The notes below the pieces were generated by a model that was not told where the DNA came from, did not search any database, and saw only the letters and a program-made list of their open reading frames with translations. Shown here piece by piece: positions 28,021-58,429 of a stretch of DNA of 64,000 nucleotides (within the stretch, counting starts at the first letter, position 1; each line of letters begins with the position of its first letter). Source of the stretch: Pseudanabaena sp. PCC 7367 (lineage in GTDB: Bacteria; Cyanobacteriota; Cyanobacteriia; Pseudanabaenales; Pseudanabaenaceae); assembly GCF_000317065.1 (NCBI RefSeq), contig NC_019701.1, positions 4,102,001 to 4,166,000 on the forward strand, given 5' to 3'. Both the position numbers and the translations under genes were made by a program.

Positions 28021-31000
28021 ATGCCTCAAACTATCTCTCTCAGCCAACTACAGGAGTTTCTCGCCCAAACCGAACCGTTTGATCGTTTGAGCGATGAATC
28101 TCAGCAGTGGTTTGCCTCCAAATGCCAATTACTGCAATATCGCATGGGGCAAACAATCCTGGTGCAAGAATCCATGCCCACCCAGGTATCGATTATTTAC
28201 CAGGGACAGGTGCGGATGTTGGGCTACGGCTCGGCAGGGGCTGTGCCAGTTAGTATTGGCGTAATGAGCACAGGTGAGGTTTTGGGCTGGCCCAGTGTAG
28301 TCAGAAATGAGCCTTGTGAGACGGCGATCGCTTCCGGTGAAACAATCACAATTACGATCGCGGCCGAGGACTTCAAAGAGCTATTAAACCGAGAGCCAGA
28401 GCTAAAGCGCTTTTTTGTGGATCAACCTTCTCTGCCGGAAGTATTCCAGTTGATTGTGGCGGAATTGAAGCGCCGCGCCGATGGCACCACTGATCCAAAA
28501 GAATTAGCCAGCCAGATCCAACCAGAAGCAGTAGTTGTAAATCTGCCCACTGGCAAAACCGATGTTAATCAGCTTGATCCGAATCTGGTTTGGCTGGTTA
28601 GTGGCGGCACGATCGAGAACCTGCCAATGGGTAGCCAGATTGAAATTAGTCAGGGTAATTTGAATGTAACTGATTCAAGCGGAGCCAGGTTACTTGGATT
28701 CAGGGATATTGATCCCCATGTTGAGGATAGTGATCCCAATGAGAATAATGGGGTTAGCAATGGTAATGGTGCGGTTGAAGCAATTGCCGTTACCGATCGC
28801 AATCAGCTAACAATTACGGCTGCACCCGAAAAACCACCGAAAGTGGTCACCGAAGAAGACCAACCCCTATCGCTGCGCCAATACCCCTATGCAAGGGGGA
28901 GAGGGCCTGTCGATGGGTTCCTTGCTTGTCTGGATATGATTTCAAAATATATCGGCGGCACATTTAAGCGGGATATCATTCAGCGCTATCTAGAAAACTA
29001 CACCCAAAACACTGGTAATATTTCGCTGCAGGTTGGTGGTGCGGTGATGGAAATGATTGGCATTGGCGCGCAGTTGGTGCAAGTGCCAACGATCGCCATC
29101 AATCGGGTCAAAGCGCCGGCATTAATTCAATGGCAAGATAGCTTTGCCCTGATTTATCACATCTCTGGTAACGAGATGATTATGGCCTCGCCAGAATCCG
29201 GCGGTGTAAAACGCTGGAAAATTAGCCAGTTCATGGAAAACTGCGAGGATCAACTGCAAATTTTGCTCCTCCGCCCCAAATCCAGCTTTACCAAGGAAAA
29301 ATTTGGGCTGCATTCTTTTATCCCCTACGTGCAACAGTATGCCGGCGTACTCACCCAGGTGATCATTGCCTCGGCCTTTGTGTTGATGTTCAGCCTTGCC
29401 AATCCGTTGATTGTGCAGATTATTATTGACAAAGTGCTGTCCCAGGGCAGCATTGACACCCTCGACGTGCTTGGTTGGCTGTTGATTATTGTGGCGGCCT
29501 TTGAAGCGATCCTGACCGGGTTGCGTACCTACTTGTTTGTGGATACCACCAACCGGATCGACTTGAGCCTGGGTACCCAGATTATTGATCACTTACTGCG
29601 GCTGCCTTTGTCCTATTTCGATCGCCGCCGGGTTGGTGAGCTTTCCACGCGGATTAATGAGCTGGAAAATATCCGCCGATTTATGACCAGTACTGCCCTG
29701 ACCGTGGTGCTTGATGCGGTCTTTTCGCTGGTCTACATTGTAATTATGATGGCCTATAGCCTGGTACTGACCTTCTGGGCTCTGGTGACCGTGCCATTTT
29801 TTATTGTGCTGGCGCTGATCGCCTCACCAATTATTCGCCGTCAACTGCGTACCAAGGCTGAACGCCATGCCGATACTCAATCCTATCTGGTGGAAGTATT
29901 ATCGGGGATGCAAACGGTTAAGGCACAAAACATTGAGCTAAAATCCCGCTGGCAGTGGCAACAACGCTATGCCCGATTTGTGAATGCTGGGTTTAGAACG
30001 GTGTTAACCTCCAGTTGGGCAGGCTCAGTGAGTAACTTCCTTAACAAGTTCTCTGGCCTGGTGCTGCTCTGGGTTGGGGCTCACTTGGTTTTGGATAACC
30101 AGCTTACCCTGGGTGAGTTGATCGCCTTTAGAATCATTGCTAGCTATGTAACCAGTCCTCTATTGCGATTGGCGCAACTGTGGCAGAACTTCCAGGAAGT
30201 GGGCCTGTCGATCGAGCGTTTGAGCGATATTGTCGATGCCGAGCAGGAAGTAGCGGAAGATAACCACACCAATATTCCGATGCCGGAAATCCAAGGTGCG
30301 GTTAGATTTGAAGAAGTTAGCTTCCGCTTTAATAGCACTGGGCCATTGCAGCTTAGCAACATTAATATTGACTTTCCCGCTGGCGCGTTTGTGGGTATTG
30401 TGGGGCAAAGTGGTTCCGGTAAGAGTACCCTGACCAAGCTGATCCCCCGTCTCTATGAACCCCTAACTGGGCGGATTCAGGTGGATGGCTATGATATTGC
30501 CAAAGTGGAGCTATATTCGCTACGTCGCCAAATTGGTGTGGTGTTGCAAGACACCCTGCTATTCAATGGCACAGTACAAGAGAATATTGCCCTGACGAAT
30601 CCAGAAGCTACTTCTGATGAAATTATTGAGGCGGCCAGAATCGCTGTAGCCCATGACTTTATTATGGAGTTACCGGCTGGCTATAACACGATCATTGGTG
30701 AACGGGGTGCCGGATTGTCTGGGGGACAACGGCAACGGATTGCGATCGCCCGAACTGTGTTGCAGCGGCCGCGATTGTTGATCCTAGATGAGGCTACCAG
30801 TGCGCTGGACTATGATTCAGAGCGCCAGGTCTGTCAAAACCTGACCGAAGCTTTCTATGGCGAAACATTGTTCTTTATTACCCACCGTTTGAATACAATC
30901 AAACAGGCGGACACGATCTTGATGATGGACAAGGGCTCGATCGTGGAGATGGGTACCCATGATGAATTGATGGAAATGCGCGGTCGTTATTACTGCCTAT

Positions 31001-31026
31001 ATCAGCAACAAGAATCGCAGTTTTAG
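28021..31026 (+). CDS. Type I secretion ABC protein: CNB-like, degenerate C39, TMD, NBD
   Basis: This 1001-residue HlyB-like exporter has four parts. Residues about 1-150 resemble a cyclic-nucleotide-binding (Crp-like) domain, with IIYQGQVRMLGYG and the TGEVLGWPS segment. Residues about 285-420 are a C39-peptidase-like domain in which the catalytic Cys position reads Gly299 (VDGFLACLDMI), so it should dock substrate without cutting. The membrane domain is at about 435-720. The ATPase has Walker A near 795, LSGGQ near 899 and Walker B (LLILDEATSALD) near 918. Family knowledge: a C39-like domain without the Cys marks RTX-type rather than double-glycine substrates. HlyD follows 379 bp downstream. 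Confidence 0.9.
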   Translation: MPQTISLSQLQEFLAQTEPFDRLSDESQQWFASKCQLLQYRMGQTILVQESMPTQVSIIYQGQVRMLGYGSAGAVPVSIGVMSTGEVLGWPSVVRNEPCETAIASGETITITIAAEDFKELLNREPELKRFFVDQPSLPEVFQLIVAELKRRADGTTDPKELASQIQPEAVVVNLPTGKTDVNQLDPNLVWLVSGGTIENLPMGSQIEISQGNLNVTDSSGARLLGFRDIDPHVEDSDPNENNGVSNGNGAVEAIAVTDRNQLTITAAPEKPPKVVTEEDQPLSLRQYPYARGRGPVDGFLACLDMISKYIGGTFKRDIIQRYLENYTQNTGNISLQVGGAVMEMIGIGAQLVQVPTIAINRVKAPALIQWQDSFALIYHISGNEMIMASPESGGVKRWKISQFMENCEDQLQILLLRPKSSFTKEKFGLHSFIPYVQQYAGVLTQVIIASAFVLMFSLANPLIVQIIIDKVLSQGSIDTLDVLGWLLIIVAAFEAILTGLRTYLFVDTTNRIDLSLGTQIIDHLLRLPLSYFDRRRVGELSTRINELENIRRFMTSTALTVVLDAVFSLVYIVIMMAYSLVLTFWALVTVPFFIVLALIASPIIRRQLRTKAERHADTQSYLVEVLSGMQTVKAQNIELKSRWQWQQRYARFVNAGFRTVLTSSWAGSVSNFLNKFSGLVLLWVGAHLVLDNQLTLGELIAFRIIASYVTSPLLRLAQLWQNFQEVGLSIERLSDIVDAEQEVAEDNHTNIPMPEIQGAVRFEEVSFRFNSTGPLQLSNINIDFPAGAFVGIVGQSGSGKSTLTKLIPRLYEPLTGRIQVDGYDIAKVELYSLRRQIGVVLQDTLLFNGTVQENIALTNPEATSDEIIEAARIAVAHDFIMELPAGYNTIIGERGAGLSGGQRQRIAIARTVLQRPRLLILDEATSALDYDSERQVCQNLTEAFYGETLFFITHRLNTIKQADTILMMDKGSIVEMGTHDELMEMRGRYYCLYQQQESQF

Positions 31027-31405
31027 ACTCGATTTTGAGCCCAGTTTCTCAGTTTGATGTTGCACAATGAATGAAGGAGTTAAGGCACAGCAAACAATCA
31101 GCAATTGCACCGAAATGAAAACCGATTGCTTGGTTAGGCGCGTATAGACAGAGTATTAGGCGATCGTAGTCAGGTGTCCTGTGCAGATTGAACACCAACA
31201 ACTATCAAAGCAAAGTATTTAATTTATTTAGCTTCAAACTCAATTCCCGCCAGCTTAATGAATCTTTGCTTATTTCCCTTCGCAGTCTTACTTAATCTTT
31301 GAGTGCAACTGAGTCTGAATCAGTCCACCTAACTTATTGATATTATTTATTGATATTCCTTAACCTGAAACAGCAATAGATTGAACTAAATAAACCACAA
31401 GCATT
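31027..31405. other. Spacer between exporter and HlyD genes
   Basis: 379 bp, long for an operon. It has TTATTGATATT at 31334-31344 and 31347-31357. There is no terminator hairpin, so co-transcription remains possible. Confidence 0.5.
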
Positions 31406-32830
31406 ATGAAAGCGATCGACAAAACCAAACAAAAGAAAAAGCCCGCCCTAGCGCCAGCCGAACAGCCGATCATCCTCGAAAAACCGGCCTTTTGGACTCA
31501 GGCATTTGTGTGGGCGATCATTGGTATTACCGTAGGTGCAGTGACCTGGGCATCGGTTGCCAAAATTGAAGAATCGGTGCTGGCCGTCGGCAAACTAGAA
31601 CCCGAAGGTTCCACCAAAGACATCCAGGCTCCCACTGGTGGTGTGATCCGCAGCATAGAAGTGGAAGATGGCGAGTTTGTGGAAGAAGGCGATCTGCTGA
31701 TGACCCTAGACCCCACCTTCTCAGAAGCCGATCGTGATGCTTTAGCCCAAGAAAGAGCAGCATTATTAGAAGAAAATCGCTACTTCCGTGCACAAATTAA
31801 TGGTTTTCAAATAGACAGCAGTATAGATAGCGACACCGCCCCAGAATTTAGTATCAATCAGGATCAACTTTTGGCCGCCAGCCAGGAAGAATTTCAATCG
31901 CGGGTTGCCAGTGCGGAGTTGGATATTCGACAACTAGAAACCCAGCTAGAACAAACCCAAAAGCAACTGATTCGCGCCCAGGATGTGTTGCTAGCCAATA
32001 TTGAAATGTTGGAAAAGAGCAAAGATATTCGTGATACTAACTTCAATATCTTGGAAGATATGCGCCCAGTGGCGGAATCTGGTGCCCTCTCCAAACTGCA
32101 ATTCCGGCAGCAAGAACAGAGATATCAATCATCTGAATCCGATGTCATCGATCGCCAAGCGCGGATTTCCTCATCGATTTCAGAGGTAGAGCGTTTAGAA
32201 AAAGAGCAAGAACGCTTAGCAGAAGCAATGTTCCAGGCTGAACAACGCTTAAACAACACCGTTTCCCAATCGGCCAAAGAGATTTTTGAGCGGATCGCTG
32301 CCAATCAAAAACGGATTTCTGATATCGAAGCCCAACTGCGTAAAGCTGATTTAGCCCTGAGCTATCAAGAAATTCGCGCTCCTATTCGTGGCACTATTTT
32401 CAATACTCAGGTGGGGCCTGGTTCAGTCGTGTCTGGTAATACTGCTGCTCAACCTTTGATGTCACTGGTGCCAGATGGCAAGCTCAAAGCCGAGGTATTT
32501 ATTACCAATCGTGATATTGGTTTTGTAAAAGAAGGTAGCTCCGTCGAAATCCGGGTAGATTCATTCCCCTCCCTGGAGTTTGGCACCCTGGATGGCACTT
32601 TAGTAGAGGTGGGCTCTGATGCTTTGCCACCAACCCAAGAACGCCAATATTATGCTTTTCCAGCCACGATCGAACTAGAACAGCAAAGCTTCCCGATTGG
32701 TGAGCGGGAGGTGCCTTTGCAAGCAGGGATGTCGGTTAGCACTAGTATTTTGGTACGCCAGCGCACCGTAATGACAATCTTCCTGGGCAGATTTACCAGA
32801 AAGTTTGAGAGCTTTAAGCATGTAAAATAA
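31406..32830 (+). CDS. HlyD-family periplasmic adaptor of type I secretion
   Basis: This 474-residue membrane fusion protein should bridge the HlyB-like exporter to a TolC-like channel. A basic N-terminus (MKAIDKTKQKKKPALAP) is cytoplasmic; one membrane helix lies at about 30-50. The lipoyl half KDIQAPTGGVIRSIEVEDGEFVEEGDLLMTLD precedes a long coiled coil (about 105-310), then the second half YQEIRAPIRGTIFNTQVGPGSVV and a beta domain with ITNRDIGFVKEGSSVEIRVDSFP, a typical HlyD segment. The glycosyltransferase gene starts 38 bases after its stop. Confidence 0.92.
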   Translation: MKAIDKTKQKKKPALAPAEQPIILEKPAFWTQAFVWAIIGITVGAVTWASVAKIEESVLAVGKLEPEGSTKDIQAPTGGVIRSIEVEDGEFVEEGDLLMTLDPTFSEADRDALAQERAALLEENRYFRAQINGFQIDSSIDSDTAPEFSINQDQLLAASQEEFQSRVASAELDIRQLETQLEQTQKQLIRAQDVLLANIEMLEKSKDIRDTNFNILEDMRPVAESGALSKLQFRQQEQRYQSSESDVIDRQARISSSISEVERLEKEQERLAEAMFQAEQRLNNTVSQSAKEIFERIAANQKRISDIEAQLRKADLALSYQEIRAPIRGTIFNTQVGPGSVVSGNTAAQPLMSLVPDGKLKAEVFITNRDIGFVKEGSSVEIRVDSFPSLEFGTLDGTLVEVGSDALPPTQERQYYAFPATIELEQQSFPIGEREVPLQAGMSVSTSILVRQRTVMTIFLGRFTRKFESFKHVK

Positions 32831-32868
32831 ATTGTCCTGGCCTGGGCTCTAGATTTAAACTACTAAGT

Positions 32869-33837
32869 TTGATTTATTTCATTACGGTTAACTACTATTC
32901 CGGTGAATTAATTGCCCGATTGATCGATTCAATTCGATCGCAATGCTCGACTCAGCTAGCCTGCCAGTTGGTGATCGTGAATAATTCGATCGCTGATCAC
33001 TCTTTAACAAATCTAATCAAAGCTCCCTCCCAGGATATTTGGGAGTATTTTTCCGTAAAGCTAATTAACTCCCCTGACAACATTGGTTTTGGCCGGGCTT
33101 GTAACCTTGGCCTGGAATGGGTCTATGCCCAAGCTCCGCAAGCGATCGCATGGCTGATTAATCCCGATGCCTATTTGCCAGCGGGGGCGATCGCCAAGCT
33201 TTGGCAATTGCAACAATCTCACCGCAATCTATCGATCATTGGCACTTCTGTTTATGATCCAAAGCAGCGGCAATATTTTGTTGGTGGCACTTTTTCACCT
33301 GATACAGGTCTAATCCAAGAGGAATTTGGCGCTATTGACGTTACTGATGCTAGAGAGTCTGAGCTAATTCAGGCTAATCATAATCAAGCAGCAGAGGCAG
33401 TTAATAATCAAATTGATTGGGTGTCTGGTTGCTCTCTGGTAATTAATCTAGCGCAATTTAACCATTGCCCCATGTTTGATCCTGATTATTTTCTTTATTA
33501 CGAAGACTTTGATTTTTGCCGTCGTTATGTCTGCCAAGGGCACAGCATGGCGATCGCTACGCAAATTCATGTGATCCATCAAACCTCAGCCCTAACCAGT
33601 GCCAACCCTGGTTTTAAGCTTAAACAAGAGATCTACAGCTATCTACTCAGCCTGAGTAAACATGCCCAAAAAATCGCCCTAATCTATCGATTGCTGCGCA
33701 TTTTTGGTGTCGCTTTACTGCAAATTGTGGTTAAGCCCAAGGTGTCGATCGCTAAGTTGCAAGGGGTTTTGCTCTATGCTCGCTATTCCTTTTTAGGCAA
33801 TCCAAGTAGCGCCAGTTCAATAAAAAATGATCGTTAG
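32869..33837 (+). CDS. Family 2 glycosyltransferase, TTG start
   Basis: This 322-residue GT-A glycosyltransferase resembles rhamnosyltransferases. It opens IYFITVNYYSGELIARLIDSI; the nucleotide-sugar site includes INSPDNIGFGRACNLG, and the acidic motif reads INPDAYLP (near 98). GCSLVIN and YYEDFDFCRRYVCQGH match the catalytic region of family members, with Asp in EDFDFCRR a candidate base. The start TTG at 32869 begins exactly at the first strand of the fold; no ATG lies nearby and the Shine-Dalgarno is weak. It sits 38 bases after hlyD, so it may belong to the secretion operon and glycosylate the exported protein or a surface polysaccharide. Confidence 0.85.
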   Translation: MIYFITVNYYSGELIARLIDSIRSQCSTQLACQLVIVNNSIADHSLTNLIKAPSQDIWEYFSVKLINSPDNIGFGRACNLGLEWVYAQAPQAIAWLINPDAYLPAGAIAKLWQLQQSHRNLSIIGTSVYDPKQRQYFVGGTFSPDTGLIQEEFGAIDVTDARESELIQANHNQAAEAVNNQIDWVSGCSLVINLAQFNHCPMFDPDYFLYYEDFDFCRRYVCQGHSMAIATQIHVIHQTSALTSANPGFKLKQEIYSYLLSLSKHAQKIALIYRLLRIFGVALLQIVVKPKVSIAKLQGVLLYARYSFLGNPSSASSIKNDR

Positions 33838-47585: not shown

Positions 47586-48398
47586 TCACCGCAACAATTC
47601 CTCCATTGCCGAACTGTACTTAGAATGCTTAGTCACCCGCAGTGGAAAACTACCCGCAATTCCTGAGATTAGATCGTAGCAATCCCGCGAAGCTTTGATC
47701 TCAATAATTACTAAATTTGAAGGGGGATGGGGTTTGGTTAAATTTGGCAAAGGCGAAAGCCGCTGATCGAACACCTTAATCGAATTATCGATCGTAATTC
47801 TGACCTGCTGGCTAAACGAAACATAATATTCCCGGTGATAGGCATTCAGCATCACTGCCCAGCCAGAGCTATCCAGATACAGGCCAAACTCTGGCTCCAG
47901 TTGCGATCGCATGGTTTTAACCAGGTCACGCCAGGTAGTTTTGGTTAGATCCAGGGGCATATTTATTTTTTGCGATCGCTTCCAGCCCAGATTATTAAAC
48001 TTGCCCTTTAGCTCCAGCCTGCCTTGAATTTGGTCATAACGATCGCCATACCACCGCAACCGCAACTTGCGCCGCTCACTCACCCCCGACACATTTTCCA
48101 TATAGCTATGTAAATGGGGCGTATCGAAATAAACATTATTCACCTGGCGATCGGGGAAGGCAGGGCGAAAGGCCGCCGGATGCACTCTCAACCAGGCACG
48201 TAACTGGGGCAGCATCAATCGATCGCCGACAATTTTGATCTCATAGCGGCTATTTTTTAACTCAGCCTGGGCAGACTTTTGCAATTCTGTTAAGCCAAGG
48301 GAAGTAGAAGGCAAAGTCGATCGTTTTGCTCGATCTGACTCAAGTAGATCAACAAATTTAAATGACTGGATCGCCTTAATTAGCCTACTCGCAAACAA
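47586..48398 (-). CDS. VTC-domain protein (polyphosphate-polymerase-like)
   Basis: This is a 270-residue protein with a CYTH/VTC tunnel fold (about 50-268). Key strands are YEIKIVGD, NNVYFDTPHLHSYMENVSGVSERRKLRLRWYGD, GRLELKGKFNNLGWKRSQKI, and NLVIIEIKASRDCYD near the end. The basic and acidic residues on these strands line the phosphate tunnel in yeast Vtc4. It has no membrane segment. The reading starts at a TTG (48396-48398) and internal TTG starts are possible, so the N-terminal 30-40 residues are uncertain. It is the last gene of the DUF4956-CotH-VTC cluster. Confidence 0.83.
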   Translation of the reverse strand: MFASRLIKAIQSFKFVDLLESDRAKRSTLPSTSLGLTELQKSAQAELKNSRYEIKIVGDRLMLPQLRAWLRVHPAAFRPAFPDRQVNNVYFDTPHLHSYMENVSGVSERRKLRLRWYGDRYDQIQGRLELKGKFNNLGWKRSQKINMPLDLTKTTWRDLVKTMRSQLEPEFGLYLDSSGWAVMLNAYHREYYVSFSQQVRITIDNSIKVFDQRLSPLPNLTKPHPPSNLVIIEIKASRDCYDLISGIAGSFPLRVTKHSKYSSAMEELLR

Positions 48399-48488
48399 AC
48401 TTCTTGCCTCACATCTGCACCAGAGATATAACCCTTTAGGTTAAAACCTTAATTGATTATTATCCTGTCAACTGATTACCTTAGCTCT

Positions 48489-51317
48489 CTAATCAACTTC
48501 TAACTCAGCTTGATCGATCTGCGCCCAGAATTCTTCAGAACCGATCCCATCGAGGCGATCGCCATCCAGTTCAATCCAACTCCCTGCCTCAATCAGCGTT
48601 TTAGTTCTGGTATCCGCAAACCGAACTTGCCGCGCCGTCATATTAGCACTACCCCATTCACTGCGGGCTTGATAGGCAATCAATCCAGCCTGTTTAGCAT
48701 TTTCGATCGCCACGTTGACTATTTGCACCGCCGCCCGATCGAGACTGGCGATTCCAATCCCCACATCTTTAATCTCTAAATCCTGCAAACTAACCTTACT
48801 GCCCTGTCCTGCCGAGATCGCCTTATCCTCAATCTGACTAAATTGACTATTAATCACCGCCAGATCAGTTCCTTCCGCATCGATCGCATCCGCCTGAATA
48901 TTCGTAAACTCGCTGTTGCTAACCGCACCGCTACTAAATTCAGCATCGATCCCATCACCAGCTAAATTAATAAACTGGCTAGCGCTGACCTCAAATTCAC
49001 TATTGGAAAACCGTAAAGCATTATCAGCACTGCTATCAACAAGCTGAAGATTTTGGATTTTTACCACGCTGTTATGGAAGGTGATGGAACTTTCTAATAA
49101 TCCCCCTGCCCGCGAGATGCCGTTGGTTTGCTCAACGATCACATGTTGCCAGTTTGATTGGCTCGCCTCCTGACTATTCCTCTTATCGTTACTGCTAGCA
49201 TTGCTACCCAGTGCGATCGTGGCAACTCCTGCCCATTGTTCAGCCTGAGCCATTAATCTAATTGGTGCTTGCTCCGTGCCCAGCAATTGCATCCCAGCAT
49301 CTGCTAATAACACCGCCTCTGGTTCAAACCGTAGCGTTGTCCCAGGATTAATTTGCAAGTTCATCCCCCTGGGCATTACCAGATCACCCACTACGTCCCA
49401 CTGGCCTGGTTTGACAATTAAAGTATCTGGCCGATCGCCCTGTTCCAAAAATGGATGTTGTGCCAGCGCGGCAGTCAGCGACGGCATAGCAGTTTGCGGA
49501 TATTCATAGACCGTGGTTTCGATCGCCCGTTCCAGCCCCAAAAAGCGATAGGCAATCCGGATCTCTGGCAGCTCACCCAGTTGATTCTGTTGGAATCCAG
49601 GGGGCAGCGGAATCAGGAACACAGTTTTTTCCTGCAGATCAGCATTCAAAGGCGATCGACCCACCTGGCTATGTTCGGCTGGACGTAAAACTACGGTTGC
49701 ATCACCGGGGCGATAATAGGTATAGCCTGCGGCGGTATCCTGCCAGGTTTCGATCGCGGGATAAAAATTCTGGTCTTCATTTAGCTTAAACCCCAGCACT
49801 TCCACTGGCTGCACCAGGCGATTGTTTACTTCAATTTGCAGGTACGATCGTCGGTCTTGATTAGCTTCACCCAGCTTAACCACCTTCACAAAAGCAGAGA
49901 GGGCATTGGTTTCACTCAAGCTCTGCCGGATTGCCTCCTGCCGATCGATCGCGGTCTGCCAGACCTGCTCCAGAAGCGTATTTTTCTGTGGATCGATGTC
50001 GGGGTCTTTATATAAGACCAATTGCAATTCCTTAAACTGTTTTTGCAGGGGCGATCGTACTTGCTCAAGGTATTCCGGCTGACTGATCCGCTCTAGCTCG
50101 CGCACATAGGCTTCGGAGATAATTGGATCTTGCAACACCTGGCTAGTCCAGTTTTGATTACGCCAGCGACTACCACTACCACGGATATCATCGGAAAAAA
50201 TATCCATCCCCTGCATCCCCCAGTTATAAACATTGTCGTAGTGATAACCATCGCGGCCAATCGGTTCTAGCTTGGCAGTGATTGGGTTGTAATAAAAATG
50301 GGTGTTCCAATCTGTGAGGGTGTGATAAGCCCGCCAGAGTTCCACGATCGCCAAAAATTTAGCCATCAACTCCACATCAAATACTTCTGAAGCAGCTAAT
50401 TGACCTTCCTGGAAAGCTTTGAGCATGGCGATCGCCTGATCCCGCTGCTGGGATAATTCTGGATCACGATCGACCCGTTTGGCTCGGCTCACCTCAAACG
50501 CATCATTCCCCGTAATCACGATCCCTTCGCGCCGTTGTTGTGATTCATATAGCTCAACTGAGAAATGCTCTTCGATCGCATATACCCCCTTGGGCGAACC
50601 ATTAAAGTTAAGGTCAATAAATTGATAGCGAGGGGCTAGCACTCCCTCCCGTCGCAGGTTTTCCAACCATACCCATTCATATAGATAGTTGCGAGTCTTG
50701 GGGCTGTGGAGCGAAAAACGCCGCATTCCCAGAAAATGCTTGTCGTCTTTGACATGTACCCGAAATGACCATTTCTCACTATCCAGGTGATCGATGCCAT
50801 TGCCTTTAAAGCGCATTTTGACCGGAATCACCTGCCCATCATAGCGAAGCTTGGCTGACACAAAATATTTATCTTCGGCCAGAATTCGCCCCCGTTGGAG
50901 CGCCGTTTCTCTGGTGCGTGCCAGGTCTTTATAATGCTTGAATTTCATATCCACCTGCACGGTGGGCAGATCCGGCGCACGGAGTAGGGCTTCTAAATAC
51001 CTGCCGATCGAGGATGGGTTAAAGTTGCCCAGATTCGCCAGCAAGAACTTGTGCGCTTCATGCTTATGGAACATATAACCAGCACCAAAGGAGCCAGCAA
51101 TAATCAAAGTGGTGAGTCCCAGGGTGGTTAGTCTAGATCTAAAGCGGCCACGTTTCGATCGCGGCGATCCAGAACTAGTTAAACTAGAGCCATTAATTAC
51201 TGGATTTGCCGATTCACCAGGATTAGCATTTTTCGTTAACCCTGCATTTTGCTCAGCTTGGCTGCCTTGCAATCCGGAACTTGGTTCTAAGTCTCGATCG
51301 CCCTTATGAATTAGCAT
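48489..51317 (-). CDS. CotH-kinase-like protein with C-terminal beta-helix
   Basis: This 942-residue protein has a disordered N-terminus (1-55) and one membrane helix (about 65-85, LTTLGLTTLIIAGSFGAGYMF), so the rest is extracytoplasmic. A CotH-kinase-like domain (about 120-460) contains MRFKGNGIDHLDSEKWSFRVHVK, FSLHSPKTRNYLYEWVWLENLRREG and LWRAYHTLTDWNTHFYYNP. Where many CotH proteins show a WDxD-like motif this one reads PIGRDGYHYDN. Residues about 630-940 form a right-handed beta-helix built of repeats such as SNSEFEVSASQFINLAGDGIDAEFSSGAVSNSEF. CotH kinases phosphorylate spore-coat proteins in Bacillus; activity here is unproven. Confidence 0.83.
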   Translation of the reverse strand: MLIHKGDRDLEPSSGLQGSQAEQNAGLTKNANPGESANPVINGSSLTSSGSPRSKRGRFRSRLTTLGLTTLIIAGSFGAGYMFHKHEAHKFLLANLGNFNPSSIGRYLEALLRAPDLPTVQVDMKFKHYKDLARTRETALQRGRILAEDKYFVSAKLRYDGQVIPVKMRFKGNGIDHLDSEKWSFRVHVKDDKHFLGMRRFSLHSPKTRNYLYEWVWLENLRREGVLAPRYQFIDLNFNGSPKGVYAIEEHFSVELYESQQRREGIVITGNDAFEVSRAKRVDRDPELSQQRDQAIAMLKAFQEGQLAASEVFDVELMAKFLAIVELWRAYHTLTDWNTHFYYNPITAKLEPIGRDGYHYDNVYNWGMQGMDIFSDDIRGSGSRWRNQNWTSQVLQDPIISEAYVRELERISQPEYLEQVRSPLQKQFKELQLVLYKDPDIDPQKNTLLEQVWQTAIDRQEAIRQSLSETNALSAFVKVVKLGEANQDRRSYLQIEVNNRLVQPVEVLGFKLNEDQNFYPAIETWQDTAAGYTYYRPGDATVVLRPAEHSQVGRSPLNADLQEKTVFLIPLPPGFQQNQLGELPEIRIAYRFLGLERAIETTVYEYPQTAMPSLTAALAQHPFLEQGDRPDTLIVKPGQWDVVGDLVMPRGMNLQINPGTTLRFEPEAVLLADAGMQLLGTEQAPIRLMAQAEQWAGVATIALGSNASSNDKRNSQEASQSNWQHVIVEQTNGISRAGGLLESSITFHNSVVKIQNLQLVDSSADNALRFSNSEFEVSASQFINLAGDGIDAEFSSGAVSNSEFTNIQADAIDAEGTDLAVINSQFSQIEDKAISAGQGSKVSLQDLEIKDVGIGIASLDRAAVQIVNVAIENAKQAGLIAYQARSEWGSANMTARQVRFADTRTKTLIEAGSWIELDGDRLDGIGSEEFWAQIDQAELEVD

Positions 51318-51356
51318 AAATACTTAACTCATCAATACTAATTAACCTAACTAACC

Positions 51357-52280
51357 TCATACCTCAGGGATACCTCGCTGTTCCACACAGGAGATCGTAG
51401 CCTGGGGCAAGGTTTGTTGTAAATTATCGATCAGCGCAATGAGTACCTTACTATCACGGCAGTTGATGTAATAGGTGGCTTGCAAATAATCTTCGCTCGC
51501 ATCCAAACGACGCATATCAGCCAGATAGGTATGTAGCGAGAGGATTTCATGGATTTGCGCCAGGGTTTGATTGGTGGAATGCTGTGGCGATCTATTCGGC
51601 AATGATTTATTGTTAGCAGTTTGGATCGCGCTGTCAATAGATTCAGGAGATTCAATAGATTCAGTAGGTTCAGACGCTGTGCCCGCTATATCTGTGTCAT
51701 CTGTGCCACCTGTGCTTAGGTCACTGGAATGATCGCCAACCGACTCGATCGACCTGTCAGGATTGGTGCGAAGTTGAGAATCATGTTTTACGCCATTACC
51801 TGAGCCATTCGCAGTTAGCTTTTGTGGCACTTCGATATTCAAATAAAGATTATGCTTGGCATGGCGATAGGGACTGGGCAATCGCCGCATTGTTGCTAAC
51901 ACCGTCAAAATCAACACATAGGCAGTCAGAGTGGGAAGGCGCTGGTCGGCTCCCAAACCCAGGCCAATGGCGATCGCCATGAATAAGTAACTCAGCTCCT
52001 CCGGCTCTTTGATTGGGGTGCGAAACCGCACGATCGACAAAGCCCCTACTAATCCCAACGATAGCGCCAGCGAGGATTTTACGACAGAGATCACCAGGAT
52101 TGTAGTGAGTACAATCAATGGAAAAACCTGCGCCAACTCCGCCCGATTGGATTTGGTGCGGCCAAACCGGGTGTAGTGCCAGGACAAGCCGATCGCCAAA
52201 ACAGTCCCCAATAGCAAATTCAACAACAATGCCACAAGGGACAATGGTGCTGGCTCGGTAATACCAAGATTTGGGGGCAT
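51357..52280 (-). CDS. DUF4956 membrane protein
   Basis: This is a 307-residue protein. Membrane segments lie at about 12-32, 50-72, 80-100 and 105-128. The segment SVVKSSLALSLGLVGALSIVRFRTPIKEPEELSYLFMAIAIGLGLG is the DUF4956 hallmark. A variable Ser/Thr/Asp-rich linker (about 155-235) leads to a short cytoplasmic alpha/beta domain (LHTYLADMRRLDASEDYLQATYYINCRDSKVLIALIDNLQQTLPQATISCVEQRG). Its function is unknown. It is the first gene of a three-gene cluster, 39 bases before the CotH-like gene. I recall VTC, DUF4956 and CotH genes as frequent neighbours in bacteria. Confidence 0.85.
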   Translation of the reverse strand: MPPNLGITEPAPLSLVALLLNLLLGTVLAIGLSWHYTRFGRTKSNRAELAQVFPLIVLTTILVISVVKSSLALSLGLVGALSIVRFRTPIKEPEELSYLFMAIAIGLGLGADQRLPTLTAYVLILTVLATMRRLPSPYRHAKHNLYLNIEVPQKLTANGSGNGVKHDSQLRTNPDRSIESVGDHSSDLSTGGTDDTDIAGTASEPTESIESPESIDSAIQTANNKSLPNRSPQHSTNQTLAQIHEILSLHTYLADMRRLDASEDYLQATYYINCRDSKVLIALIDNLQQTLPQATISCVEQRGIPEV

Positions 52281-56008: not shown

Positions 56009-58429
56009 ATGGCGGTAATTAATGTTACAACGACGCTAGACGAAAATGATGGCGGCCTTGGTCTTGGCGCTGGTGATAGTTTGCGCGAAGCGATCATCGA
56101 AGCGAATACCAATGCCGATGCGGTCGATACGATTAATGTAATTGGTGGACTGACTTATACTCTAACCCTAGGCGCTGGTGATAACTCAGCCGCTATGGGC
56201 GATCTGGATATTAATGATCTGGTGCTGGCTAACACCAACATTACGATTCAGAGTACAGGGGTTGGCAATGCCACGATCGATGCCAGTGGTTTGGCCGGCG
56301 ATCGCGTATTTGATGTGCGCAATGGCGATGCCACGGTTAACTTTATTGGCTTGACGATTACTGGTGGTGATGCAGGCACTCGTGGGGGCGGCGTGCGATT
56401 GGTTGATAATGCTACGTTGAATGTAACCGATAGCATGATCGTCGGCAATACTGCTGCTAACAATGGTGGTGGGATTGGTGGTCGTGATGGCAATACCATT
56501 AATATTACTAACAGTACTATTTCTACAAATACCGCTACTAATGCTGATGGTGGTGGTATCCGGTTTCGTGATAATAGCAATCTCACCGTAACTGGTTCGA
56601 CAATCAACAGTAATATTGCCGATGATGATGGTGGTGCAATTGGTGGCCGCGATGGTAACACCATTACCATTACTGACAGCACTATCTCTGACAATACTGC
56701 TACTAATGACGAGGGTGGTGGTATCCGGCTCCGTAATGATGGCAGCATTATGGTAACTGAAACGGAAATTAGCAATAATACTGCTGGTGGTGATGGCGGT
56801 GGTATCCACGGCAATAATGGTAACGATATTGTCATTACCAGTTCGCAAATCACTGGTAATAGTGCAGTTAACTCTGGCGGTGGTATTCACAGCTATGATG
56901 CCAGTGGCATGAATGCCAACCCCAGTCTTACTATTATCGACTCACAAATTAGCGGTAATACTGCTGCTGATGGTGGTGGTGGTGGGGTCTATGTCGAAGG
57001 CTTCCATACTGTCATGATCACGAATTCTCAGATCAACGATAACAGCGCATCTGAAGCTGGTGGGCTGCAGACCGATAATGACAATACGGTCGAGATCACC
57101 AACTCGCAGATTAGTGGTAATACTGCTGATAATAATGGTGCTGGTTTCTATGCAGACTTCACGAATGTTGTAACCATCACCGACAGTACCATTAGTGGCA
57201 ATACATCCAGTGGTGATGCTGGTGGTGTTTATATTTTCACAGGTAATATCTTTACGATTACTGGTAGCACCATTAGCGGTAACTCAGCGGATGGCGATGG
57301 TGGTGGCCTCTTCTTTGACGCTAGTGGTAATACTGCCACAATTATCAACAGTACGATTAGTGGCAACAGCGCAAGCAATGAGGGTGCTGGCATCTTTATT
57401 GAAGATACCAATAACAACCTAACAATCAGCCACGCCACGATCGCGTTTAACGATGCAACTACTGCTGGTGGTGGCATCTTTATCGACGATGCAACTACAA
57501 CTATTACGATCGACAATACGATCGTGGCCATGAACATGGCACCAACCGGCCCCGACATTGACAATACTGCTGGCGGCACGATCAACAGCGAAGGCTTTAA
57601 CATCATTGGTGACAATAGCGATGTAGCAGCCGACTTCCCCGCTGGCATTCCCAACGCCAATGATGACTTTGTGGGCACGGCAATGGACCCGATCGATCCG
57701 GGCTTGGCTCCCCTGGCCGACAATGGTGGCCCGACTCAAACCCATGCCCTTGGTGATGGCTGTAGCTTAGCGATCAACAATGGTGATCCTAACTTTGTGG
57801 CTCCGCCTGACTTCGACCAGCGTGGTATGGGTTTCGATCGCGTCTTTGGTGGCCGGATCGACATCGGTGCCTTTGAGTTGCAAAACTCTGCTGGCGTTGT
57901 TGTGTTCGGTAACACCTCCTTTGGCACGCCCAACCCCGACACGATCGTCGGCGATGCCAATAACAACACAATCAATGGCAACGGTGGTGATGACAGCCTG
58001 TTCGGCAGTGATGGCATCGATCGGGTCAATGGTGGTTTAGGTAATGACTTCCTTGGTGGTGGCCTGGGCAATGACTTCCTCAATGGTGGGGCAGGCAACG
58101 ACACAATGGATGGCGCTTGTGGCGGCACTGGTACTGGAGAATTCGATCGCCTCACTGGTGGTGGTGGTGCTGGTGCAGATACGTTTATCCTCGGCGCTAG
58201 CTTTGGATCTTATTATCTGGGCAATGGTGATGCTGACTTTGCCTACATCAGCGATTTCAACTCTGGTGTGGATACGATCGTGCTGAATGGCATGTTGGCC
58301 GACTATACGTTTGTGCCGAATACCACGGTAAATAATCTCACTGGTCAGGGCATCTTCAACGGTGGCGATCTGGTGGCGATCGTGCAGCAGCAGATGATTA
58401 ACACCGTCACTGATTTGGTGTTTGTCTAA
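56009..58429 (+). CDS. Secreted beta-helix protein with RTX repeats
   Basis: This 806-residue protein has no Sec signal. The GDSLREAIIEANTN segment near 26 is a CSLREAI motif. From about 75 to 530 it is built of about 20 repeats close to NSTISGNTATNDGGGI, which should form a right-handed beta-helix of the polymorphic outer-membrane protein type. A choice-of-anchor-Q-like segment follows (PLADNGGPTQTHAL ... DQRGMGFDRVFGGRIDIGAFEL, about 570-625). RTX calcium-binding nonapeptides (GGDDSLFGSDGIDRVNGGLGNDFL) span about 650-700, then a C-terminal region (DRLTGGGGAGADTFILG ... FAYISDF) typical of type I secreted cyanobacterial proteins. It is a likely substrate for the HlyB-like exporter at 28 kb. 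Confidence 0.88.
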   Translation: MAVINVTTTLDENDGGLGLGAGDSLREAIIEANTNADAVDTINVIGGLTYTLTLGAGDNSAAMGDLDINDLVLANTNITIQSTGVGNATIDASGLAGDRVFDVRNGDATVNFIGLTITGGDAGTRGGGVRLVDNATLNVTDSMIVGNTAANNGGGIGGRDGNTINITNSTISTNTATNADGGGIRFRDNSNLTVTGSTINSNIADDDGGAIGGRDGNTITITDSTISDNTATNDEGGGIRLRNDGSIMVTETEISNNTAGGDGGGIHGNNGNDIVITSSQITGNSAVNSGGGIHSYDASGMNANPSLTIIDSQISGNTAADGGGGGVYVEGFHTVMITNSQINDNSASEAGGLQTDNDNTVEITNSQISGNTADNNGAGFYADFTNVVTITDSTISGNTSSGDAGGVYIFTGNIFTITGSTISGNSADGDGGGLFFDASGNTATIINSTISGNSASNEGAGIFIEDTNNNLTISHATIAFNDATTAGGGIFIDDATTTITIDNTIVAMNMAPTGPDIDNTAGGTINSEGFNIIGDNSDVAADFPAGIPNANDDFVGTAMDPIDPGLAPLADNGGPTQTHALGDGCSLAINNGDPNFVAPPDFDQRGMGFDRVFGGRIDIGAFELQNSAGVVVFGNTSFGTPNPDTIVGDANNNTINGNGGDDSLFGSDGIDRVNGGLGNDFLGGGLGNDFLNGGAGNDTMDGACGGTGTGEFDRLTGGGGAGADTFILGASFGSYYLGNGDADFAYISDFNSGVDTIVLNGMLADYTFVPNTTVNNLTGQGIFNGGDLVAIVQQQMINTVTDLVFV
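56440..57430 (+). repeat. Beta-helix-encoding imperfect repeats
   Basis: A recurring segment of about 70-100 bases encodes the NSTISGNTA-type motif. It gives long spurious frames on the opposite strand and may be a recombination hotspot. Confidence 0.75.

Follow-up and report, generated by a model that had tools for sequence, protein, structure and literature searches.

A fixed DUF4956-VTC gene pair and its CotH-beta-helix partner as a possible cell-envelope module in a cyanobacterium

In the yeast VTC complex, Vtc4 makes polyphosphate and threads its product through a Vtc1-type membrane channel that is lined with basic residues. In bacteria, the genes cotH-PPP-DUF4956(-DUF4832) have been described as accessory genes of Gram-positive Pel loci, and streptococci, clostridia and bifidobacteria carry the trio next to pel (PMC7112168). 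In the S. intermedius trio (SIR_1592-1594), aggregation in one medium fell to less than half when either the DUF4956-like gene or the CotH gene was deleted; Pel was raised by the first of these deletions and lowered by the second, and deletion of the VTC gene left aggregation and Pel in place, with no specific defect reported (PMC12345266). The same study, published in 2025, gives SIR_1592 four TM segments and an intracellular ACT domain, and its authors report that they did not find the three-gene arrangement outside Pel (PMC12345266). That layout, which is also that of the DUF4956 protein analysed here, together with the naming of DUF4956 among the accessory genes (PMC7112168), suggests that SIR_1592 belongs to DUF4956. 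A further cluster, NELoc-2 of Clostridium perfringens, has been described by locus annotation as VTC-‘tubulin’-VTC-‘tubulin’-CotH (PMC2879425). It resembles the locus studied here in that VTC, a second small protein predicted to be in the membrane, and CotH are clustered with glycosyltransferase-type genes, and its ‘tubulin’ may be DUF4956. The three-gene association is thus already known in part, as Pel accessory genes.

The window (the whole stretch of 64,000 nucleotides from Pseudanabaena sp. PCC 7367 that was analysed) carries the three families on its minus strand in the order DUF4956-CotH-VTC. The DUF4956 gene (51357-52280, minus) encodes 307 amino acids (PF16316, E=1.2e-15), the CotH + beta-helix gene (48489-51317, minus) encodes 942 amino acids (PF08757, E=4.1e-10; Beta_helix PF13229, E=7e-8), and the VTC gene (47586-48398, minus), which starts with a TTG codon, encodes 270 amino acids (PF09359, E=3.6e-24). 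The Pfam matches of all three proteins are well above the curated cut-offs, and open reading frame coordinates, spacing and Pfam together bear out an earlier sequence-only reading of the locus as three consecutive minus-strand genes with gaps of 39 and 90 nucleotides. Because no terminator-like site was found between the genes on the minus strand, their co-transcription is plausible. Each of the three families is present as a single copy in the host genome (4.886 Mb, two contigs).

As with the Pel accessory genes, the same three families lie side by side and are probably linked to surface polysaccharide. Unlike them, the CotH protein of the window is fused to a beta-helix, its gene sits between those for DUF4956 and VTC, and the host genome lacks PelG. 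PelG (PF16933) was absent from 18 of the 20 trio- or pair-bearing genomes tested, including the host genome and every cyanobacterium tested, which corrects the published report (PMC12345266): the trio does occur outside Pel. A Pel locus was accordingly rejected as the identity of the window trio, since the genome has no PelG match, and the window itself holds no polysaccharide operon beside the trio.

Counting co-occurrence and gene order across cyanobacterial genomes, as the sequence-only reading had proposed, we found DUF4956 in 9, VTC in 10 and CotH in 11 of 244 Cyanobacteriota genomes. DUF4956 and VTC share nine genomes (Fisher p=1.4e-15), VTC and CotH likewise nine (p=7.5e-14), and in the lone VTC genome without DUF4956 the VTC gene lies at a contig end. 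The window's order, DUF4956-CotH-VTC, is also the prevailing one, from which two loci (L136 and L140) deviate, and in the small-genome loci that were fetched VTC always occurs with DUF4956 and a CotH-beta-helix gene unless the contig ends. Carriers are scattered. VTC is present in one of the 38 genomes of the window's order (the window's own genome) and in 10 of 201 genomes of what is presumably the family Cyanobiaceae, and other carriers are deep, probably non-photosynthetic cyanobacterial lineages. The closest relatives of the window DUF4956 protein (up to 39% identity) come from small-genome cyanobacterial loci, which together with the scatter of carriers points to sporadic gain and loss, probably by horizontal transfer.

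In Bacillota, DUF4956 and VTC occur in the same 31 of 239 genomes with equal copy numbers per genome (38/38; p=1e-39). Thirty-seven of the 38 pairs are adjacent, within 2 kb and on the same strand, mostly with VTC first; the genes of the remaining pair lie close to the starts of two different contigs. CotH is found in 26 of the 31 pair-bearing genomes and in just four others (p=1e-25), and lies within 6 kb of 23 of the 38 pairs, being absent within that distance of the other 15. In a control set (n=14), both DUF4956 and VTC matched in the same three members, from Bacteroidota, Actinomycetota and an archaeon. Among 80 loci found by the DUF4956 motif, a sample skewed towards Firmicutes by a query that started from a gut-lineage sequence, VTC was nearby in 68 and CotH in 64. 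Pairwise distances of DUF4956 and VTC are correlated at r=0.92 over 51 loci (0.55-0.58 for CotH), values to which shared species history contributes. The pairing counts and the CotH counts identify DUF4956-VTC as a core pair and CotH as a frequent third partner. The sequence-only reading had named the three families as frequent neighbours, and this holds across phyla (for DUF4956 and VTC, Fisher p=1e-15 in Cyanobacteriota and 1e-39 in Bacillota); the co-occurrence is not confined to close relatives, as other phyla carry the trio. Sporadic presence, with VTC in only 1/38 genomes of the window's order, is what might be expected if the genes were coincidental neighbours of unrelated function, but Fisher p values of 1e-12 to 1e-39, equal copy numbers and correlated distances refute a chance neighbourhood, and we give that explanation practically no weight. 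The trio is almost certainly a functional unit, and DUF4956 is very probably the dedicated membrane partner of VTC. With a literature on DUF4956 that is almost nil, its 1:1 pairing with VTC in two phyla makes it a testable candidate for a membrane partner and conduit.

The VTC protein matches PF09359 with 86 bits against a cut-off of 23 and is a triphosphate-tunnel, polyphosphate-polymerase-like protein. The VTC profile matches Vtc4 (3g3q, E=9e-18), which by sequence is the closest solved structure and whose residues the conserved positions follow. Those conserved in the window protein are K55, R113, R115, R189, R200, E233, K235, S259 and K260, and in a profile alignment to 3g3q/5iiq the residues that are invariant in 10 divergent VTC sequences coincide with tunnel residues of Vtc4. 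We take Vtc4 K200, R361, R373 and K458 (numbered from the alignment) to be tunnel residues as well; their counterparts are invariant in the 10 diverse sequences. R113, R115 and E233 of the window protein correspond to Vtc4 R264, R266 and E426, the joint mutation of which inactivates the yeast VTC complex or impairs catalysis (PMC9911596). The locus thus shares with the yeast complex a homologous tunnel domain with its catalytic residues kept, a constant membrane partner and basic residues near the membrane. It differs in that the window protein has neither an SPX domain nor a fused three-helix Vtc1-type membrane domain (PF09359 being the only domain found in it), in that its membrane partner, DUF4956, is a separate protein of a separate family, and in that export is proposed here to the periplasm or exterior, versus the vacuole in yeast. 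Since it has no hydrophobic segment, we read the VTC protein as cytosolic, and from its sequence we class it as one that would work like the eukaryotic VTC complex, not as a member of that complex.

The triphosphate-tunnel superfamily is catalytically diverse, and the VTC protein could instead be another of its members, a hydrolase or nucleotidyl cyclase that makes a small signal or clears triphosphate, with DUF4956 as its membrane anchor or regulator. The resemblance of the DUF4956 C-terminal domain to small-ligand-binding ferredoxin/PII/ACT folds would suit such a role, but the closest solved structure is Vtc4 (E=9e-18) and the conserved residues follow it, so that we consider this quite improbable. 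The same genome also encodes a PPK1 polyphosphate kinase (contig C2 of G000, 4181812-4182351, ∼15.8 kb beyond the window end), whose nearness to the trio is probably a coincidence. Given PPK1, VTC is not the sole possible source of polyphosphate in this genome and need not serve bulk polyphosphate storage.

The DUF4956 protein, previously read as a four-helix membrane protein, has five membrane helices in its AF2 model (80 sequences, pLDDT 77), at residues 15-39, 46-67, 71-87, 93-110 and 114-133. These are followed by a ferredoxin/ACT-like domain, predicted to be cytosolic, with an unstructured insert at approximately residues 160-233. In a PDB search of the model, residues 140-306 gave ferredoxin-like matches with Z of about 10, resembling S6/ACT/PII-type folds. 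These were the only matches, none being found for the membrane part, a result that does not show a new fold. The family is recognised here both by the PF16316 profile and by its conserved VGALSIVRFR motif. The signature of the window protein, VGALSIVRFRTPIKEPEEL (residues 78-96; 51993-52049, minus), sits where helix 3 is predicted to end on the cytosolic side, and G79, A80, L81, R85 and R87 are invariant in the 80-sequence alignment. The positive-inside rule would place both the conserved VRFRTPIK motif and the C-terminal domain on the cytosolic side.

The CotH-beta-helix protein has a basic N-terminus and a hydrophobic segment at residues 65-83, with a hydropathy of 1.35 over 19 residues that falls under the strict cut-off of 1.5; this segment is a putative signal anchor, which would make the protein exoplasmic. 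Its model is based on 12 sequences (pLDDT 72, with values >90 across much of beta-helix residues 740-930). The CotH domain (residues 116-472; 49902-50972, minus) superimposes on B. cereus CotH (5JD9) with a VIA-align Z of 27.8 and an rmsd of 2.9 over 319 residues. The DFG-like Asp251 of CotH corresponds to D356, which is invariant in 12/12 sequences, and the Lys motif is mostly retained. At the position of the catalytic-loop Asp228 of B. subtilis CotH, the cyanobacterial clade alignment shows His in 11/12 sequences (H332 in the window) and Lys in one; D336, four residues past H332, is not conserved in the clade. The substitution D228Q makes B. subtilis CotH inactive (PMC7821199), and the cyanobacterial clade, lacking Asp228, may have lost phosphotransfer or perform it in an altered form.

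The beta-helix domain (about residues 612-930; 48528-49484, minus) most closely matches AlgG (4nk6/4ozz, Z 27), followed by AlgE4/AlgE6 (Z 26) and other beta-helix enzymes (Z 22-24); no sequence relative was found in the PDB. Conservation in the protein peaks in this domain, in which D788, D791, D810, D813, D831, K832, S835, G837 and D860 are invariant, an Asp/Lys ladder that suggests a catalytic or metal-binding groove. The mannuronan C5-epimerases AlgG and AlgE share the right-handed beta-helix (Z 26-27), and AlgG is periplasmic, but identity to them is about 10% and the invariant residues are those of the ladder. The DPH[D/E] motif, which we take to be the catalytic motif of the epimerases, is absent both from the window protein and from the invariant columns. 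Membership of the alginate epimerases was rejected on the absence of this motif, though the fold is alike. CotH + beta-helix architecture was also found in an Elusimicrobia locus and in deep cyanobacterial lineages; no match to the window protein was found in plasmids. At one locus of a small-genome cyanobacterial lineage, four tandem CotH-like genes surround a single DUF4956-VTC pair (L039, 7606-15643).

These features bear on whether the protein acts as an extracellular protein kinase, as in Bacillus, phosphorylating Ser-rich surface proteins with phosphate or ATP supplied by VTC and DUF4956. Like the Bacillus spore-coat kinase (5JD9/5JDA), it has the fold of CotH (Z 27.8 against the enzyme of B. 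cereus), the DFG-like Asp (D356) and most of the Lys motif. Unlike that kinase, it has His in place of Asp228, the residue whose D228Q exchange is inactivating (PMC7821199), carries a fused beta-helix of polysaccharide-enzyme type and has no link to spores, and no conserved gene for a Ser-rich substrate was noticed beside the loci. We regard such a kinase as improbable and rejected it as the default reading. Of the membrane-anchored CotH-like kinase with a long beta-helix seen in the sequence-only reading, the fold and the beta-helix stand and the kinase assignment is weakened by the clade-wide loss of Asp228. With Asp228 lost and a polysaccharide-enzyme-like beta-helix as its most conserved part, the CotH-beta-helix protein more likely acts on a glycan than on another protein.

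Examples from other loci, as opposed to neighbourhood statistics, link the trio to polysaccharide genes. Polysaccharide export (Wza/Wzz-like) genes lie beside L140, an MBOAT gene follows L138, glycosyltransferases and a UDP-GlcNAc epimerase lie beside L136, a glycosyltransferase gene is upstream of L031, and Firmicutes loci contain a sugar transferase as well as glycosyltransferases. At L076, the locus that was scanned, a gene of the Cthe_2159 carbohydrate-binding family adjoins the CotH gene, and clustering with that gene identified homologues, as separate genes, near the trio or CotH in five other Firmicutes loci. The trio proteins probably modify cell-surface polysaccharide, and on this comparative evidence the odds of a surface-glycan role appear somewhat better than even.

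Gene order, pairing, conserved catalytic residues and predicted folds are established here, and we infer from them an exoplasmic location, a glycan target and the export and use of polyphosphate, in an account of the trio's function that is interpretive overall. In our preferred reading, to which we assign a probability of roughly 0.4, the trio would be one envelope module with VTC in the cytosol, DUF4956 in the membrane and the CotH-beta-helix protein outside. VTC and DUF4956 would form a fixed pair, a triphosphate-tunnel polymerase coupled to a membrane conduit, as a prokaryotic counterpart of the yeast VTC complex. The VTC product, which may be polyphosphate or a related compound, would be taken up by the conserved Arg/Lys motif of DUF4956 (VRFR..K), predicted to lie on the cytosolic side of the membrane. 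Outside, the beta-helix might bind or edit surface polysaccharide, and the CotH-fold domain might draw on the phosphate-rich product after its export, or on a nucleotide, in modifying or regulating the glycan. Within this scheme, the synthesis of polyphosphate and its export to the CotH side are doubtful. The surface-modification system envisaged from sequence fits the predicted topology of a cytosolic enzyme, a membrane protein and an exported protein; a plain CotH-type protein kinase as its working part is disfavoured.

The strongest objections to the envelope-module reading are the S. intermedius VTC deletion and the lost Asp228. In a linear donor pathway, loss of VTC should have the same effect as loss of the DUF4956-like protein, and the VTC deletion, with no specific defect reported, counts against it. 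Further points against the envelope-module reading are the DUF4956 genes that have no VTC nearby, the 15 Bacillota pairs lacking CotH within 6 kb, PPK1 as another possible polyphosphate source, a window with no polysaccharide operon next to the trio, and a DUF4956 membrane part for which the PDB search gave no structure that would support a channel. The S. intermedius VTC deletion and the lost Asp228 are better accommodated by a regulatory or structural module, in which the CotH fold is a pseudokinase, VTC senses phosphate or nucleotide, no phosphate donor is exported, and the beta-helix is the working part, with polysaccharide length or attachment tuned through the ACT-like domain of DUF4956. 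The exchange of Asp228 for His in 11/12 sequences, the beta-helix as the most conserved part of its protein, the ferredoxin/ACT-like domain predicted in DUF4956 and the S. intermedius phenotypes (Pel up on deletion of the DUF4956-like gene and down on deletion of CotH, with none reported for VTC; PMC12345266) all agree with it. A mere sensor, however, would not need the full catalytic set of VTC or 1:1 pairing with DUF4956, and D356 (Asp251 in CotH) is invariant; on balance we find a regulatory module rather unlikely.

If the envelope-module reading holds, bacteria and archaea possess a VTC-type complex of their own, a dedicated machine that delivers polyphosphate or a like product outside, and the donor used by extracytoplasmic kinase-fold enzymes becomes a directly testable question. 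A bolder form, which we judge unlikely, is that DUF4956 is a hitherto unrecognised polyphosphate translocase that serves VTC-type polymerases throughout prokaryotes as their membrane subunit. Exported polyphosphate would then be the phosphate or energy donor with which a kinase-fold enzyme outside the cytoplasm modifies surface polysaccharides; this would explain how such an enzyme works without ATP. As far as the literature searched shows, the following are new: the near-obligate pairing of DUF4956 with VTC, the existence of this pair outside Pel, the fusion of CotH to a beta-helix with a conserved ladder in cyanobacteria, and the missing catalytic Asp of CotH.

Several further arrangements were seen around these families. 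In a VTC subfamily scoring >180 bits (G458 C18, G484 C1 6.66 Mb, G528 C7, G567 C5 180 kb, G681 C10), VTC is paired with DUF4956 and CotH is absent within 6 kb, putatively a second type of pair with a different partner. Some DUF4956 genes, in Hymenobacter and Sinorhizobium, have no VTC within 8 kb, indicating that DUF4956 has other uses; no DUF4956 match was found in phages. On a Hymenobacter plasmid (L142, 6730-9985), DUF4956 is flanked on one side by a gene of the TolC family and on the other by one that, judged by eye, encodes an HlyD-like protein, with neither VTC nor CotH, which suggests that DUF4956 also serves an envelope-transport context. On psymA of Sinorhizobium meliloti (L144, 6248-8618), a gene whose start resembles a caspase-type protease (by eye) is followed directly by a divergent DUF4956-like gene that has no VTC nearby and whose product is a possible membrane effector in a defence-like system.

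Beside cyanobacterial trios, calcineurin-like phosphoesterases or a homologue were found at L032 (12975-13856), L135 (2967-4908) and L139 (8636-10249), those of L032 and L135 being homologous at about 31% identity. In the deep lineages, the gene adjoining the CotH-beta-helix gene belongs to one homologous family (L034, 5463-6479; L035, 6286-7407; L036, 4957-6210; L037, 3664-4884), of which the L034 copy matches phosphate-selective porin O/P (PF07396, E=7e-9) and the L036 copy does so weakly. In the window itself, a large secreted-type right-handed beta-helix protein with RTX calcium-binding repeats is encoded at 56009-58429, near the trio and not part of it, and ABC exporter-like, HlyD-like and glycosyltransferase-like genes stand in a row at 28021-33837 (by eye), possibly a type I secretion system for the RTX protein.
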